Assembly (NCBI GenBank): GCA_027622975.1
Contig: JAQBVN010000010.1
Location: 1 to 64,000, forward strand
Source of the DNA: Bacteroidota bacterium
GTDB taxonomy: Bacteria > Bacteroidota > Bacteroidia > Flavobacteriales_D > Sanyastnellaceae
DNA: 64,000 bases
Reading direction: 5' to 3'
Position numbers and translations under genes: made by a program. The first letter of the stretch is position 1. Every line of letters starts with the position of its first letter. A model generated the notes under the pieces. That model was given only the letters and a program-made list of their open reading frames with translations. It did not search any database and had not been told where the DNA came from. Below, piece by piece: positions 1,255-42,346 of the stretch.

Positions 1255-3888
1255 ATGAAACGTACTGCAAGCTGGGCGGCCCTCTCCCTCGCCGCCACCC
1301 TGTTGAGCGTGATGCCGACAGAAGGTTTGGCCCAAAAAGGCAAGAAAAAGAAGGGGAAAAAAGGCGACACCGAACAGGTGGACGGCAAGAAGAAAGGCGG
1401 AAAAGACGAACTGAAGAGCGTCGCCGACTTCACCAAGGATTTTCGGACCATGGACGGGCTGTTCACGCTCTATCAGGACACGGTGAAGGGAGACATGTAC
1501 ATGCACGTTCCAGCGGGCGCCATGGACACCGAGTTCATCTACTTCTCGCAAGTTGAAGACGGCGTGGTGGAAAGCGGTTTTTTCCGAGGAAGCTACCGAG
1601 GAAGCGAGGTTGTGACCTTCCACCGTCACTTTGGACAACTCGAGGTGCATGCGGAAAATACCAACTTCCACGTGGATCCTGCGAATGCCTTGATCAAGGC
1701 CGCGGACGCCAACCTCAACACCCCCATCCTTGCGAGCGTCAAAATTGAGGCCGAGGACAGCTCAGGGGTCGTGATTTCTGCAGACGCCTTGTTCTTGAAT
1801 GAGGAATTGCAGATGATCAAACCGCCATCGCGGCCCGGAAGCAAGTCGGCGCTCGGCAAACTCAGCAAATCCAAGAGCAAGGTCGTCGACGTCGCCAACT
1901 ACCCCTCCAACACGGAACTGTCCGTGGATTACGTCTACGACAACAGCAGCCCCACGGTAGGCGGCCCTGAATTCGAAGACGGCCGCTACGTCACCGTGGG
2001 CTACCGCCACGCGTTGTTGCCCATGCCTGAGGAAGGGTTCACGCCGCGTGCGGACGACCCGCGAATCGGGTTCTTCACCACGGAAGTGGACGACTTGACG
2101 GGCGTCAGCGCGGCCCCGTGGCGCGACATGATCCACCGGTGGCGCCTCGAAAAGAAGGACCCTTCGGCCGCCATGTCCGAACCCGTAGTGCCCATCACGT
2201 GGTGGATTGAAAACACGACCCCCGAGGAGTTCCGCCCCATCATCAAGGCGGGCGTGGAGAAGTGGAACCAGGCCTTCGAGCCCCTCGGATTCAAAAACGC
2301 CGTGGTCGTCAAAATCCAGCCCGACGACGCCGATTGGGACGCCGGCGATGTGCGCTACAACGTCCTGCGTTGGACGGCCTCCCCTTCGCCCCCGTTCTCG
2401 GGGTACGGCCCCAGCTTCGTGAACCCACGCACAGGGGAGATTCTCGGCGCGGACATCATGCTCGAGTACGGCGGGATGGTCGGTCGCCTCTGGCGCGCCG
2501 AGGTCTTCTCCAAGGCGGGCATGATTGAAGAGGCCATGGACGAAGAGTACGCGGCGCTCGACGCCGAAATGGTAGGCCGTTCGTCGCGCGAGATCTTGGC
2601 CGAGCAAATGAGTCGCTGCCACGCCGGCACCGTGATGGGCCGCAACAGCTTGCTCGCCGCCGCCGCCATGCGCGCCTACAACTTCACGGACGAAGAGCAC
2701 GCGGAGTTTGTGCGCCAAACCCTCCACCGCCTCGTCTTGCACGAGGTCGGACACACCCTCGGGATGAGCCACAACATGCACGCCAGCACTCTTTTGACGC
2801 CGGACGAGCTGAAGGACGCCGCGAAGGTGGCCGAGAACGGCATGTGCAACTCCGTCATGGAATACCCCGCGATCAACTTCGCCCGCAACAAGACCGAACA
2901 GACTCGCTTCTACGACGACAGCCCCGGGCCCTACGACAAGTGGGTGATCGAGTACGGATACAGCGTGGGACTTGACGATGCAGACGCTGAGGTGGCGCGG
3001 TTGAGCGCAATTTTGGAGCGCTCGACGGATCCGCTGCTGCAGTTTGGCAACGACGCGGACGACATGCGCGGCACCGGCCGCGGCATCAACCCCGACGTGA
3101 ACATCTACGACCTGAGCAGCGATCCGGTGGCGTACGCCGCCGAGCGTTGCGAACTCGTCAACGACCTCCTCCCCACCTTGGTCGAGAACTTCGCCCCCGG
3201 CGTGGACAGCCACCAGGAGGTGCTGCGCGCGTACTACGCCCTGACCGGCGAATACGCGACCCAGCTCCGCATCATGACCCGCCAAATCGCCGGCGTACGC
3301 TACAACCGCGCCACCCCGGCCCAACTCGACGGGGCCGCCCCCTACACGCCCGTGTCGGAGGCCGACCAAAAGGCCGCGATGAAGGCCCTGGCCACCTATG
3401 CCTTTGCGCCGGATGCGTTTGAGGCGCAGGCCGACGTGTTGGCCTACCTGCAGGCGCAGCGTCGCGGGTTTGGGTTCTTTGGTGGCGGGGAGGACCCCAA
3501 GGTCCATGCCCGTGTGGCCGGGGCCCAAAGCGCCGCCATGGCCCACCTCGTCCACCCCAACGTGCTGATGCGCGTTCTTGACAGCGGGCTCTACGGCAAC
3601 ACGTACGACCTCGCCGAATACATGGACGACCTGACCGATATGATGTTCAAGGCGGACTTGCGCACCTCGGTGAACACGTACCGCCAAGGGCTGCAGCTCA
3701 TGTACACGGAGATGTTGGTGGATGCGCTCGGTGACAAGTCCAAACTGAATGCCGTGGCGCAAAGCGTCGTGCTCGCCCAGTTGCGTCAAATCGATCGCCA
3801 ACAACGCGACGCGGCGTCTCCTGATGGGATGACAAGGGCCCACCGCGCCCACGTACGTCACCTCATTGAAGTGGCGCTCGATCGTTAA
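1255..3888 (+). CDS. Secreted zinc metalloprotease (DUF5117/DUF4953 metzincin family)
   Basis: Preprotein of 877 residues. The signal peptide is MKRTASWAALSLAATLLSVM, followed by a Lys-rich stretch. The zinc site HEVGHTLGMSH (from about residue 496) fits HExxHxxGxxH of the metzincin clan, with a downstream Met-turn in SVMEYPA. The upstream region resembles the DUF5118/DUF5117 part of large Bacteroidota zinc-dependent metalloproteases, and the catalytic part matches DUF4953. The likely role is extracellular or periplasmic protein breakdown; the substrate is unknown. An in-frame TTG nine bases upstream is possible, but ATG at 1255 directly opens the signal peptide and was preferred. The gene stands alone and is followed by a hairpin terminator. 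Confidence 0.88.
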   Translation: MKRTASWAALSLAATLLSVMPTEGLAQKGKKKKGKKGDTEQVDGKKKGGKDELKSVADFTKDFRTMDGLFTLYQDTVKGDMYMHVPAGAMDTEFIYFSQVEDGVVESGFFRGSYRGSEVVTFHRHFGQLEVHAENTNFHVDPANALIKAADANLNTPILASVKIEAEDSSGVVISADALFLNEELQMIKPPSRPGSKSALGKLSKSKSKVVDVANYPSNTELSVDYVYDNSSPTVGGPEFEDGRYVTVGYRHALLPMPEEGFTPRADDPRIGFFTTEVDDLTGVSAAPWRDMIHRWRLEKKDPSAAMSEPVVPITWWIENTTPEEFRPIIKAGVEKWNQAFEPLGFKNAVVVKIQPDDADWDAGDVRYNVLRWTASPSPPFSGYGPSFVNPRTGEILGADIMLEYGGMVGRLWRAEVFSKAGMIEEAMDEEYAALDAEMVGRSSREILAEQMSRCHAGTVMGRNSLLAAAAMRAYNFTDEEHAEFVRQTLHRLVLHEVGHTLGMSHNMHASTLLTPDELKDAAKVAENGMCNSVMEYPAINFARNKTEQTRFYDDSPGPYDKWVIEYGYSVGLDDADAEVARLSAILERSTDPLLQFGNDADDMRGTGRGINPDVNIYDLSSDPVAYAAERCELVNDLLPTLVENFAPGVDSHQEVLRAYYALTGEYATQLRIMTRQIAGVRYNRATPAQLDGAAPYTPVSEADQKAAMKALATYAFAPDAFEAQADVLAYLQAQRRGFGFFGGGEDPKVHARVAGAQSAAMAHLVHPNVLMRVLDSGLYGNTYDLAEYMDDLTDMMFKADLRTSVNTYRQGLQLMYTEMLVDALGDKSKLNAVAQSVVLAQLRQIDRQQRDAASPDGMTRAHRAHVRHLIEVALDR

Positions 3889-37618: not shown

Positions 37619-38629
37619 TCAAAAGGACGCTCGCACGAAATCACCCAGCTGCGAAGGAATCATCCATGTGACAAACAAAGCACCGTTCCATCGCTTGAAA
37701 TCCGTCGTTCCCAAACGCATGTTGTCCCTGCAAGCCCGCACATTAAGTTCGATGTTTCCACCCTCTTCAAAGGACAAATCCAATCCTCCCCCGACATACA
37801 TGCCCGTTCCCCATTGGGTCAACAAGTTGTTGGCTGCACCCAACGTCCCATTCCCATTGGCCGGTGCCGTCAGCAAATCCAAGCGCTTGGCTTGCGACTC
37901 GTTGTACTCCCACAACATGATGTAGTTCTCCTCCACAGTCAAGGCGTTGGCGAGCGCGCCTGCTTCAAAGGTCCAAGAGACACCCTCGGCCATGAACGCC
38001 GAGGTCCGATACCCAAGCAGGACATTCAGTCGGCGTTCCTTTCCCAGGATGGGGAAGGTCAAAATCTCAGCATTACCCTGACCCTGATCGGGCAATTGCC
38101 CCGTATTCAAGGTCCAAGCTCCCTCGGCCGTCATTTGCATGGCATCCACACTCACCACCAAGGCACTCTCAGGATTCCAGAATTTCACAGCCTTCAATCC
38201 AAACATCATGGCAGGCCGGTATTGCATCAGAGGCAGGCTTTCAAGCCTCCACCCCATGTTGCCATCGGTCAAAGAATTGAGAATGGCCGTCACAGGATGA
38301 GTCTGTTGCTGCTGTTGCAGCTGAAGCAGTCGGTCTTCGATGCCCCAGATCTGTCCACTGGCATCCCCCAACTCCCACATCCCTGAGCCGTCGTAGAAAT
38401 AAGCCGGCCAACTGTCGCCGCGATACAAACCAATGTTCAGACCAAACTCCAAGCCACGACGGCTGACATAGGTGTAGTCGTCTTCTGTGTCTCGAACCGT
38501 CATTTGGCCATGACAGAAAGCTGGAACCCCAAGCATCAACAATCCAGCCAATCCCCCGCTCCATGTCAGCCTTGACAGGGAAGTTTGGACTGTTGCTCGA
38601 ACGTCTACCGAGGGAAGAAAGAAGTGCAT
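37619..38629 (-). CDS. Outer-membrane beta-barrel protein of unknown function
   Basis: 336 residues from the ATG at 38629 (a TTG two codons upstream is also in frame). Signal peptide ends GVPAFCHGQ. The body alternates aromatic and polar strands (GLEFGLNIGLYRGDSWPAYF; NVLLGYRTSAFMAEGVSWTF; LTQWGTGMYVGGGLDLSFEE) and finishes with an aromatic residue (GDFVRASF), the usual outer-membrane barrel signature. A Gln run (LLQLQQQQQTHP) lies in a loop. Diverges from the cysteine-leader/sulfite-reductase operon. No recognised family. Confidence 0.68.
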   Translation of the reverse strand: MHFFLPSVDVRATVQTSLSRLTWSGGLAGLLMLGVPAFCHGQMTVRDTEDDYTYVSRRGLEFGLNIGLYRGDSWPAYFYDGSGMWELGDASGQIWGIEDRLLQLQQQQQTHPVTAILNSLTDGNMGWRLESLPLMQYRPAMMFGLKAVKFWNPESALVVSVDAMQMTAEGAWTLNTGQLPDQGQGNAEILTFPILGKERRLNVLLGYRTSAFMAEGVSWTFEAGALANALTVEENYIMLWEYNESQAKRLDLLTAPANGNGTLGAANNLLTQWGTGMYVGGGLDLSFEEGGNIELNVRACRDNMRLGTTDFKRWNGALFVTWMIPSQLGDFVRASF

Positions 38630-38697
38630 ATCCAAAGGTCGGAAGAAATTCCCTCCTTTTTATCCTATAAATCCGATAGGCTTTGTATATTAGGGCT

Positions 38698-38781
38698 ATG
38701 GTTTTGTTATTCGCCTGGAACGTGTGCTGCGGTTGCTGTTGTCCATCTCCCGAATCGGGAAGGTTGCTGACAATGCCGTGA
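38698..38781 (+). CDS. Cysteine-rich leader peptide (27 aa)
   Basis: Reads MVLLFAWNVCCGCCCPSPES, then GRLLTMP and TGA. Five of six consecutive codons (10, 11, 13, 14, 15) are Cys: tgc tgc ggt tgc tgt tgt. It lies between the divergent barrel gene and the sulfite reductase start, and an intrinsic terminator follows 25 bases after its stop. This is the classical layout of an amino-acid attenuator, with the controlled amino acid matching the pathway: sulfite reductase makes the sulfide used for cysteine. The translation is direct; the regulatory role is inferred. No Shine-Dalgarno is visible, as elsewhere in this window. Confidence 0.75.
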   Translation: MVLLFAWNVCCGCCCPSPESGRLLTMP

Positions 38782-38805
38782 AGTTTCGCGCTTCGGGCAA
38801 AGACA

Positions 38806-38837
38806 AAGGCCTCCCTCTCTGGGAGGCCTTTTTTTTT
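38806..38837 (+). terminator. Attenuator terminator
   Basis: GGCCTCCC-TCTCT-GGGAGGCC, a perfect 8-bp stem (extended by AA/TT pairs), is followed by nine T. It lies upstream of, not after, a structural gene, 39 bases before the sulfite reductase ATG. Confidence 0.93.
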
Positions 38838-38875: not shown

Positions 38876-40975
38876 ATGCAAAGTTTCATCAGTGAAATCG
38901 AGGATCCCATCGTGCAGCGAGACATCCTCGAGTTGAACAAGAAGATCCTGATGTTTCGTGAAGGCCGAATCGACGAGGAGCGTTTTCGCAGTCTGAGACT
39001 CGCTCGGGGCGTCTACGGCCAAAGGCAACCAGGTGTACAAATGATTCGAATCAAAGTGCCTTTGGGCCTGTTGACGTTTGGCCAGTTTCGTGGGATTCTC
39101 GACATCTGTGACCGGTACAGCACCGGAAAGTACCACATCACCACCAGGCAAGACATTCAGATTCATCACGTCAGATTGGAAGACAGCCCGGTGCTTTGGG
39201 CAGAGCTTGAGTCCCACGACGTCACTCTCCGCGAGGCATGCGGCAACACCGTCCGCAACATCACAGCTTCGCCCATGGCGGGACTGGATCCCAACGAACC
39301 CTTCAATGTCCTGCCCTGGGCCGATGCCACGTGGCGCTATTTCCTGCGCAATCCTGTATGCCAAGAGATGGGCCGGAAATTCAAAATTGCCTTCTCCAAT
39401 ACCGAAGAAGACAGTGCCATGGCAGTCATGCACGATCTCGGCGTGATTCCAGCCCTGAACAACCAGGGCCGTCCGGGATTCAAAATGCTCATCGGCGGAG
39501 GTTTGGGTGCCCAGCCGGCTGAAGCCGATGTGCTCTTCGATTGGGTGCCCACCGATGAGCTCATTCCTTGGACGGAAGCATTGCTGAGATTCTTCGATCG
39601 TGAAGGTGAAAGGACCAAACGACACAAGGCTCGCTTCAAGTTCCTGTATCAGCAACTCGGCAAGACAGCCTTGATGGAGGCCCTGAAACAAGAGCGTCTC
39701 GCGGTCACGGGGCCGTTTCCAGAAGTGAATCATCGTGACATCTCAGCGCCGTCCCGAGCCAGCATTCATGAGGAGGATGATCCCGAGGGCCACGAACTTT
39801 GGAGACAGAGCCAAGTGCAAGCCCAACGACAAGAGGGACGATTTGCCGTGGGAATCAGGGTTCCTTTGGGGGATGAAACAACCCATCGGACGCGACAATT
39901 GCTCCAAGCTCTTGAGCCACTTACAGAGGGGGAATTGCGTTTGACCCAAAGCCAAAACATCCTGCTCCCACACATCCGTGAAGAAAACCTCTCCGCCATT
40001 CACAGGGTATTGAAAACCTTGGGGTGGGATGCCTTGGGATTTGAATCCGGCGTGGATGTCACCGCATGTCCTGGCACAGACACCTGCAACTTGGCCATCA
40101 CCAACAGCACCCACCTGGCCACTGAATTGGAACACCTTCTGGAGGAGGAATTTCCCCATGTCATTCAAGACCGATCCTTCAGCGTGAAGATTTCTGGCTG
40201 CATGAACGCCTGTGGACAGCACACCCTGGCCTCGGTGGGTTTGCACGGGAGCAGCATTCGAAAAGACGGTGTTGTGATTCCAGCCATGCAAATTTTGGTT
40301 GGAGGCGGCAAGCGGCAAGATGGGTCGTGGCGCTTTGGAAAAAAGGTGATCAAACTTCCCACCCGCAGGATTCCAGAAGCCATACGCACACTCTTGATTG
40401 ACCATGAATCCCACCAGCGCCCCCATGAAACATTCGCGGATCACGTGGAGAATTTGGGTGATCGCTACTTCTACAACCTTCTGCTCCCTTTGGCCGATGT
40501 TCCAAACGCCGACGACAACTCGTTGCGGATGGACTGGGGATCGGACATCCCCTTCGTGCCTGAAATCGGCGTCGGAGAATGTGCAGGTGTCGTCATTGAT
40601 TTGGTGTCCACCTTGTTGCTGGAAGCTCGTGAAAAGTTAGATGCTGCAGAAGAGGCCTTGATCGAAGAAACATGGGGACATGCTGTCTATCACACCTACG
40701 CCGCATACATCGCCGGGGCCAAAGCTTTGCTGATTCAACGGGACCTCCCCACCAACAGCTATGCGGACATCATCGCCGCGTTTGACGAGCAGGTGGTGGC
40801 GACTGGAGAAATTTCGCTTCCGGCAGGATCCTTCACTGCCCAAACCCTCTCCTATCTCGGTGGGGGAAATCGCCCAGAATTTGCCCGTGCCTTTGCCGTC
40901 GATTGTGCCGAGTTTTTGGTCGATCTGCAACGACTTACTGGACACTCAACTTCCACAACACCTAAAGCATCATGA
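38876..40975 (+). CDS. Siroheme sulfite (nitrite) reductase with C-terminal HEPN domain
   Basis: 699 residues. Two nitrite/sulfite reductase repeats are present (ferredoxin-like half-domains at MIRIKVPLGLLTFGQFRGIL and FAVGIRVPLGDETTHRTRQL). The [4Fe-4S]-siroheme Cys ligands are C398 and C404 (TACPGTDTCNLA) and C442 and C446 (SGCMNACGQH). Substrate-binding basic residues lie in TTRQDIQIHHV. After the catalytic part, about 130 residues (LLEAREKLDAAEEALIEETWGHAVYHTYAAYIAGAKALL) resemble a HEPN helical domain. The Cys leader upstream and siroheme genes downstream argue for assimilatory sulfite reduction to sulfide. No flavoprotein partner (CysJ) is encoded here, so ferredoxin may be the donor. 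Confidence 0.88.
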   Translation: MQSFISEIEDPIVQRDILELNKKILMFREGRIDEERFRSLRLARGVYGQRQPGVQMIRIKVPLGLLTFGQFRGILDICDRYSTGKYHITTRQDIQIHHVRLEDSPVLWAELESHDVTLREACGNTVRNITASPMAGLDPNEPFNVLPWADATWRYFLRNPVCQEMGRKFKIAFSNTEEDSAMAVMHDLGVIPALNNQGRPGFKMLIGGGLGAQPAEADVLFDWVPTDELIPWTEALLRFFDREGERTKRHKARFKFLYQQLGKTALMEALKQERLAVTGPFPEVNHRDISAPSRASIHEEDDPEGHELWRQSQVQAQRQEGRFAVGIRVPLGDETTHRTRQLLQALEPLTEGELRLTQSQNILLPHIREENLSAIHRVLKTLGWDALGFESGVDVTACPGTDTCNLAITNSTHLATELEHLLEEEFPHVIQDRSFSVKISGCMNACGQHTLASVGLHGSSIRKDGVVIPAMQILVGGGKRQDGSWRFGKKVIKLPTRRIPEAIRTLLIDHESHQRPHETFADHVENLGDRYFYNLLLPLADVPNADDNSLRMDWGSDIPFVPEIGVGECAGVVIDLVSTLLLEAREKLDAAEEALIEETWGHAVYHTYAAYIAGAKALLIQRDLPTNSYADIIAAFDEQVVATGEISLPAGSFTAQTLSYLGGGNRPEFARAFAVDCAEFLVDLQRLTGHSTSTTPKAS

Positions 40976-41838
40976 CACGAGGACATCTTTGGCTTGTGGG
41001 AGCAGGGCCAGGAGATCCTGAGCTCATCACCCTGAAGGCCGCACGGGTATTGCAAGGAGCGGACGTTGTCTTGCACGACAGTTTGGTGCATCCCGACATT
41101 CTCAGGCATGCTCATCCCGAGGCGAATGTTCAATGCGTGGGGAAGCGTGCGGGTCGAGAAAGCACCCCCCAAGTGGTCATCCATGAACTCATCGCCGAGG
41201 CGGCTCAAGAGGGAAAACAAGTCGTTCGGCTCAAAGGCGGCGACCCCATGATGTTGGGGCGAGCCGGAGAAGAAATGGCCTTTGCTGACGAAGCTGGAAT
41301 TCCCTGGACGTATGTCCCTGGAATCAGTTCAGGGACCTCTTTGCCAGGACTGGCTGGCATCCCGCCCACCCTTCGCGGTGTGGCCTCCTCGGCATGGCTG
41401 GGAACCGCTACGGATCAACATGGACGTCTCACCTCTGATTTGGTCCAAGCCTTGAGCACCAACTCCACCTTGATCATCTTCATGGGACGACGTCGGATTC
41501 GGGACATTGCCTGGCATCTGGTCCATGGTGGTCGGGGCTCGATGCCCGTGGCCGTGATTTCTGAGGGAAGCTTGCCCGGCCAACAAACAGTCGTGCACGA
41601 TGCGGACACTTGGGTCTCATTGAAGAACCTGCCCACGCTGCCAGATCCTGCCCTCCTTGTGGTGGGAGAGGTGGTTCATCACCGCATCCAACACCAGTCC
41701 AATCAGGCCTTGATTCCAGAATCCCATCCACAGAAACACTCCCCCATCCGTCACTTTCCAACCTTTCAGCATGAACACGAAATTCCCCCTGTTCCTCAAA
41801 CCGGAAGCCGTCAAATTCAACGTCTTCGGAGGGTCTGA
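40972..41838 (+). CDS. cobA: Uroporphyrinogen-III C-methyltransferase (siroheme pathway)
   Basis: 288 residues. SUMT marks: LWLVGAGPGDPELITLKAAR, VVLHDSLVHPDIL, VVRLKGGDPMMLGRAGEE, TYVPGISSGTSLPGLAGIPP, LIIFMGRRR, and PALLVVGEVV. It methylates uroporphyrinogen III twice to precorrin-2, using SAM. The start overlaps the reductase stop (ATGA). After the usual end of the domain, about 45 extra His/Pro/Gln-rich residues run through the first 68 bases of the next gene in another frame. That tail is probably a by-product of the overlap. Confidence 0.94.
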   Translation: MTRGHLWLVGAGPGDPELITLKAARVLQGADVVLHDSLVHPDILRHAHPEANVQCVGKRAGRESTPQVVIHELIAEAAQEGKQVVRLKGGDPMMLGRAGEEMAFADEAGIPWTYVPGISSGTSLPGLAGIPPTLRGVASSAWLGTATDQHGRLTSDLVQALSTNSTLIIFMGRRRIRDIAWHLVHGGRGSMPVAVISEGSLPGQQTVVHDADTWVSLKNLPTLPDPALLVVGEVVHHRIQHQSNQALIPESHPQKHSPIRHFPTFQHEHEIPPVPQTGSRQIQRLRRV

Positions 41839-42346
41839 AATCGCCGAAGAAAAACTTCATTTCTTGCTCAAAAGCAGTCCACAGGCACAAATCCAGGTGT
41901 TTGCGGCATCCTTCTCTAAGCCTGTTCTCTCGCTCGCGCACAATCACCCAAACGTCCGACTCGTGAAGCGTTGGCGTGCATGGCCTTGGGATTTGGGACG
42001 AGGTGAAATCAGCATCGTCGCCACGGTGGTGGCACGCGAGGTTCTCTGGAATCAACGCGTGTGCCGATGGCGAGGTCACCTGCTCAATGTGGCGGATGTG
42101 CCTGACCAATGTGACTTCTACATGGGTGGAATTGTCACCAAAGGCCCCTTGAAGTTAGCCATCAGTACGGACGGCAAGGCCCCCATTTTGGCCAAGCGAA
42201 TGCGCGAATGGCTCGAAGACGTCCTTCCTGAAGATGTGGAGGCTTGCATCCATGAGGTTGAAGCCTTACGCCGTGAATTGCGTGGAGACTTCGCCCAAAA
42301 ACAAGCGACCCTTCGCGCCCTGACTAGGCACTTTCGTGCGTCATGA
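41771..42346 (+). CDS. Precorrin-2 dehydrogenase / sirohydrochlorin ferrochelatase (Met8p/CysG-N-like)
   Basis: 191 residues. Starts MNTKFPLFLKPEAVKFNVFG, with a Rossmann dinucleotide site where GGSEIAEEKL stands for the GGG-x-A of CysG. Further CysG-N features are NVADVPDQCDFYMGGIVTKG and LAISTDGKAPILAKRMREWLE. It oxidises precorrin-2 with NAD and inserts iron to give siroheme for the sulfite reductase encoded two genes upstream. It starts 68 bases inside cobA, an overlap that suggests coupled translation. A dedicated ferrochelatase is absent, so this bifunctional type fits. Confidence 0.85.
   Translation: MNTKFPLFLKPEAVKFNVFGGSEIAEEKLHFLLKSSPQAQIQVFAASFSKPVLSLAHNHPNVRLVKRWRAWPWDLGRGEISIVATVVAREVLWNQRVCRWRGHLLNVADVPDQCDFYMGGIVTKGPLKLAISTDGKAPILAKRMREWLEDVLPEDVEACIHEVEALRRELRGDFAQKQATLRALTRHFRAS

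Follow-up and report, generated by a model that had tools for sequence, protein, structure and literature searches.

What does a short cysteine-rich reading frame do directly upstream of a sulfite reductase gene in a member of the Bacteroidota? The frame lies in a stretch of 64,000 nucleotides, the whole of which is called the window here. A sequence-only reading had interpreted it, together with a downstream hairpin, as a leader peptide and ribosome-mediated attenuator of a sulfite reductase/siroheme operon. The gene content is as that reading proposed. The first gene (sir, 38876-40975, plus strand) encodes a sulfite/nitrite reductase-type hemoprotein of 699 amino acids with two stretches each of Pfam NIR_SIR and NIR_SIR_ferr. 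It is followed, on the same strand, by genes for two siroheme functions, a uroporphyrinogen-III C-methyltransferase (40972-41838; NCBIfam TIGR01469 and NF004790 above cut-off) and a precorrin-2 dehydrogenase/CysG N-terminal domain (41771-42346; NCBIfam TIGR01470 above cut-off). Judged from these three gene families, the operon makes a sulfite reductase-type enzyme together with its own siroheme. The C-terminal extension of the reductase (40610-40795) shows a weak HEPN match of 20.5 bits, below the curated cut-off of 22.

The leader frame spans 38698-38781 on the plus strand, from ATG at 38698 to TGA at 38779-38781, and encodes the 27 amino acids MVLLFAWNVCCGCCCPSPESGRLLTMP. Its Cys codons start at 38725, 38728, 38734, 38737 and 38740, which amounts to five Cys in six codons (CCGCCC, 38725-38742). 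When the 240-bp intergenic region was dinucleotide-shuffled 5000 times, this density was never reached, and no other ATG frame with five Cys in six codons was found on either strand of the window or in 20 shuffled windows; the 27-codon frame of the original description is thus beyond chance. An in-frame TTG at 38683 could lengthen it, while the ATG at 38698 is the start kept in relatives. Between frame and first gene lies an intrinsic terminator (38805-38837, plus strand; AAAGGCCTCCC-TCTCT-GGGAGGCCTTT and a T run), which is also kept in relatives. Its hairpin core, GGCCTCCC-TCTCT-GGGAGGCC at 38808-38828, is situated 26 bases past the leader stop, and nine T occupy 38829-38837. Hairpin, T run and position ahead of the structural gene had been recognized correctly; the stem had been given as 8 bp, but flanking A-T pairs make it one of 11 bp (38805-38831). 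The upstream gene (37619-38635, minus strand) is divergent from sir, and hence a plus-strand terminator at this place serves the sir transcript rather than its neighbor.

The genus sample comprised 11 genomes, five with sir and six without. All five sir-bearing genomes carry the leader at the same place, with CCGCCC here and a run of five or six Cys in each of the remaining four, and a strong intrinsic terminator separates leader and gene in every leader of the genus. A DNA search of the six sir-less genomes, some of them incomplete, revealed no leader, and a DNA search for paralogous leaders across the genus returned sir copies and terminator-like matches only. The frame appears to be conserved as such, judged from gaps in multiples of three and synonymous TGC/TGT changes among relatives. 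In both genus leader alignments, those of sir and of the cysM leaders described below, in-frame gaps come in threes, and gaps past the stop codon include some of one or four bases. The Cys-codon leader with its terminator before sir is a genuine element.

A second poly-Cys leader with terminator precedes the cysM operon in all eight genus genomes with upstream sequence, this genome included. Its Cys runs comprise 4-7 residues, and the operon is ordered cysM, JAMM-type protease, MoaD/SAMP-like carrier, MoeB/ThiF-like enzyme. This arrangement resembles the CysM-CysO-Mec (CysO) cysteine route, which mycobacteria use. In the present genome, cysM (G000:C28:44838-45764, locus L224) follows a leader with seven consecutive Cys codons, MTFSTNMCCCCCCCLTDRGRLRMRG, and a terminator, AAGAAGCCCTCGTT-CGT-AACGGGGGCTTCTT; the remainder of the operon was seen in relatives. 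A search of the genus genomes with the pattern TGYTGYTGYTGY led to the cysM leader, but showed no enrichment over a backwards control and was dropped as evidence. No Cys leader was found before cysH, cysD or cysS in the genus.

To extend the comparison to the phylum, 161 nonredundant sir loci were scanned for the combination of a frame that starts with ATG and has two Cys within three codons, a terminator at most 70 nt from its stop and a gene at most 200 nt from the terminator. Along with the five sir genomes of the genus and the second cysteine operon, 35 of these loci, in which a Cys-codon leader, a terminator and a following gene were identified, bear out the Cys runs in orthologous leaders on which the sequence-only reading depended. 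The same scan with other residues gave 21 loci for Met (often the same frames as for Cys), 11 for Asn, 10 for Lys and fewer for the rest; a stricter four-in-seven scan retained 11 for Cys, 2 for Leu and 0-1 for the others. Among the leader-bearing species are Christiangramia aestuarii, Christiangramia oceanisediminis, Gillisia limnaea, Mucilaginibacter roseus and Mucilaginibacter straminoryzae, and several families of the phylum have candidate elements of similar build ahead of their sulfite reductase genes. At the remaining 126 loci, no such leader was found by the scan rule. The element is accordingly patchy, which indicates frequent gain and loss or other systems at these loci.

In operons that begin with another gene than sir, the leader is located further upstream. 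Named by reading the translations, the order is leader, short gene, cysH, cysD, cysN and sir at L159, and leader, aldo-keto reductase-like gene and sir at L109. Two leader-terminator units in series occur at L006, L159, L295 and L301; no separate promoter is evident for the second unit of L295 and L301. At L006, a tRNA-Cys (gca; 3560-3633, minus strand) is encoded between the double Cys attenuator and sir, so that the attenuator may also control the supply of the very tRNA it would sense. Met codons are frequent beside the Cys codons in many leaders of the phylum outside the genus. Met accounts for 9.4% in leaders versus 5.6%, a modest excess that hinges in part on which start codon is assumed. 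Leaders with Met near Cys may sense both sulfur amino acids.

On the promoter side, a -7-like box, TATATTAG (38686-38693, plus strand), resembling the Bacteroidota motif TAnnTTTG, ends 4 nt before the ATG of the leader. Across the genus, all five sir leaders have similar boxes 3-4 nt upstream of the ATG, and most cysM leaders have one at 4 nt, four of the latter also with TTTG 19-20 nt further upstream. According to PMC9723704, the box spans -12 to -5, which together with its spacing here puts the 5' end of the RNA at or next to the ATG. The leader RNA is therefore, by motif position, probably leaderless. In Bacteroides thetaiotaomicron, leaderless messages are rare, with about 3.7% of 5' UTRs shorter than 10 nt (PMC7366714).

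Overlapping the sir promoter is a 17-bp dyad, CCTAT-AAATCCG-ATAGG (38664-38680), found once in the window at up to two mismatches (0.04 expected). Its consensus, CCTAY-N7-RTRGG, lies ahead of sir in all five genus genomes that have this gene, with variants ahead of cysH in most of them; the dyad also occurs at leader-bearing sir loci of another family (L109, L291, L294, L296, L298). The dyad probably serves a sulfur regulator as operator. A single Rrf2-family gene turned up in the genome (G000:C19:119852-120196), directly upstream of cysH (region G000:C19:119852-120902). Since CymR and other sulfur regulators belong to the Rrf2 family, Rrf2-type promoter control on top of attenuation is plausible at sir.

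Does the leader RNA offer the alternative structures that attenuation demands? A candidate antiterminator strand, GGGAAGGTT (38757-38765, plus strand), emerged from the RNAalifold consensus of the five sir leaders. Its predicted partner is CCTCCC in the 5' arm of the terminator, the pairing leaving one bulged A. Directly 3' of the Cys codons, the folds contain a putative protector hairpin, CCCG-AAT-CGGG (segments 1:2; 38749-38759, plus strand), whose predicted form is poorly kept in genome G007. At full length, all 13 leaders of the genus are more stable than their shuffles (z -2.9 to -6.5). When a ribosome halted at the Cys codons was simulated and the RNA truncated ahead of the terminator 3' arm, the fold in most cases was a long antiterminator (about -19 to -28 kcal/mol), compared with about -19 to -24 kcal/mol for the terminator fold; with the ribosome placed at the stop codon, the terminator alone remains. 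In the consensus folds of both the sir and the cysM leader sets, the antiterminator is composed of the post-Cys strand and the terminator 5' arm, and a slide of the pairing partners by one base loses about half of the pairing in genus leaders. Taken one by one, leaders often show no significant antiterminator energy, and the stalled fold of G009 barely uses the terminator arm.

Covariation of the hairpins had been named as a check, and its outcome is divided. Base-pair covariation within the genus is weak among 5-8 close sequences, one test (cysM set) being not above shuffles and one modest. In contrast, a significant signal was obtained across the phylum, where 26 leaders with dissimilar terminator arms were tested for pairing of the post-Cys segment with their own against foreign terminator 5' arms. 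The own arm was favored by 2.0 kcal/mol over the foreign expectation (z -4.8, P about 5e-5) and likewise over dinucleotide shuffles (z -4.5, 0/1000). The segment ends followed a single rule with no per-leader tuning, and the scan that supplied the leaders already requires Cys codons and a terminator. The signal is confined to the Cys-proximal half of the segment and absent in the terminator-proximal half and in upstream, downstream and reversed controls of the 26 leaders; some leaders (e.g., L002, L067, L159, L291) show no preference for their own arm. By this calculation, candidate antiterminator strand and terminator co-vary from lineage to lineage, and the segment after the Cys codons that had been proposed to pair with the 5' arm is supported by the local pairing, the consensus folds and the phylum-wide test alike.

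The locus hence combines a short frame ahead of the operon in which codons for the amino acid of the operon's pathway form a run, an intrinsic terminator between leader and first gene, apparent from sequence and fold, and behind the control codons a strand computed to exclude this terminator. With high confidence we regard it as a cysteine-specific, ribosome-mediated transcription attenuator of the trp/his type before the sir operon, a reading put forward from the sequence alone and strengthened by leader conservation, terminators and pairing tests. From the frame and the terminator, the conservation of both, their link to cysteine genes and the co-variation described above, we infer a course of translation, stalling, termination and response to cysteine, beginning with leaderless initiation. 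The leader frame would be translated behind RNA polymerase. With ample Cys-tRNA, the ribosome would proceed as far as the stop codon (38779); with the antiterminator strand either covered or paired too late, the terminator at 38805-38837 would form and stop transcription before sir. With Cys-tRNA scarce, the ribosome would stall on the Cys codons and cover the protector strand. GGGAAGGTT would then be free to pair with the 5' arm of the terminator, allowing transcription of the sulfite reductase/siroheme operon. In this way the element very probably switches on sulfur assimilation when cysteine runs short.

An output at the level of translation, in which stalling on Cys would alter how accessible the start codon of sir is and the hairpin would be incidental, is improbable in our estimate. 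It draws on mycobacteria, whose poly-Cys leaderless frames are called translation attenuators in PMC13236596 and its reference 47, and the leaders studied here look leaderless, too. However, a strong terminator is part of all genus leaders (and, by selection, of the 35 phylum loci), the observed co-variation involves the terminator 5' arm, and serial units as in L006, L159, L295 and L301 fit termination, but less so the masking of one start codon. Less probable still is a functional Cys-rich peptide, binding metal or thiols or acting in trans, with the hairpin ending its own small mRNA. Such peptides have precedent in leader peptides with functions in trans (PMC7298713), and the peptide is conserved in the genus, yet sequences outside the Cys run differ widely between lineages, Cys spacing and number vary, and the conserved part after the Cys run of the cysM leaders coincides with the antiterminator strand. 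A chance Cys frame beside an ordinary intergenic terminator, for which only the abundance of terminator-like sites in the window (8 and 9 on the two strands) would speak, is already refuted by the comparative data, the shuffle statistics and the divergent upstream gene.

How does the proposed transcription attenuator before sir relate to known systems? In an Rfam search, no riboswitch, T-box or leader family reached its gathering score, Phe_leader and Thr_leader remaining far below; the Phe_leader match (29.8 bits versus 55; 38772-38836) covers the terminator end only and was rejected. The classical trp, his, leu, ilv, thr and phe leaders of Enterobacteria likewise combine end-product codons, antiterminator and terminator before an operon, along with a protector such as is predicted here. 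The present element differs from them in its predicted sensing of cysteine, in its occurrence in Bacteroidota, in a probably leaderless frame and in having no sequence in common. Another counterpart is uORFC-8-2 before cysS of Rhodobacterales, with tandem Cys codons and an intrinsic terminator, for which ribosome-mediated attenuation was proposed (PMC8632094). It belongs to a different phylum and is set apart by gene context, cysS instead of sir, the cysS of our genus having no Cys leader.

Within the phylum, PMC9723704 mentions leader-peptide attenuation for amino-acid operons of Flavobacterium psychrophilum without details, its main text naming neither a Cys leader nor sulfite reductase. The earlier remark of knowing no established example in Bacteroidota thus has to be qualified, since it does not extend to leader-peptide attenuation as such. 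We found no published Cys attenuator of the phylum in the open literature; an earlier prediction is possible, e.g., by Lopatovskaya 2010, cited in PMC4833913. Whether Cys attenuators are widespread in sulfur assimilation of Bacteroidota, with leaderless frames, serial doubles, possible sensing of Cys and Met, tRNA-Cys within the transcript in one lineage, and a place below an Rrf2-type promoter switch, is in our judgment evenly balanced. The attenuator proposed here would by itself provide a clear sensor of tRNA charging for sulfur assimilation in a phylum with little known control of amino-acid pathways at the RNA level. For annotation, short frames with Cys runs before sir and cysM operons should be treated as regulatory and not as peptide genes.

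Poly-cysteine leader frames before cys operons of mycobacteria were reportedly described by Canestrari in 2020. These and other actinobacterial leaders share with the present element the Cys run, the probably leaderless frame and cysteine genes downstream. That Cys-rich leaders precede sulfur genes in actinobacteria, as the sequence-only reading had stated, is in line with PMC1262725, according to which these leaders lack conserved terminator hairpins. The present element, in contrast, has an intrinsic terminator and a predicted antiterminator strand co-varying with it. Due to this terminator, it is not placed among the mycobacterial leaderless frames even though it would sense the same amino acid. 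If our reading is correct, poly-Cys leaders would serve two outputs, a transcriptional one here and a translational one in mycobacteria.
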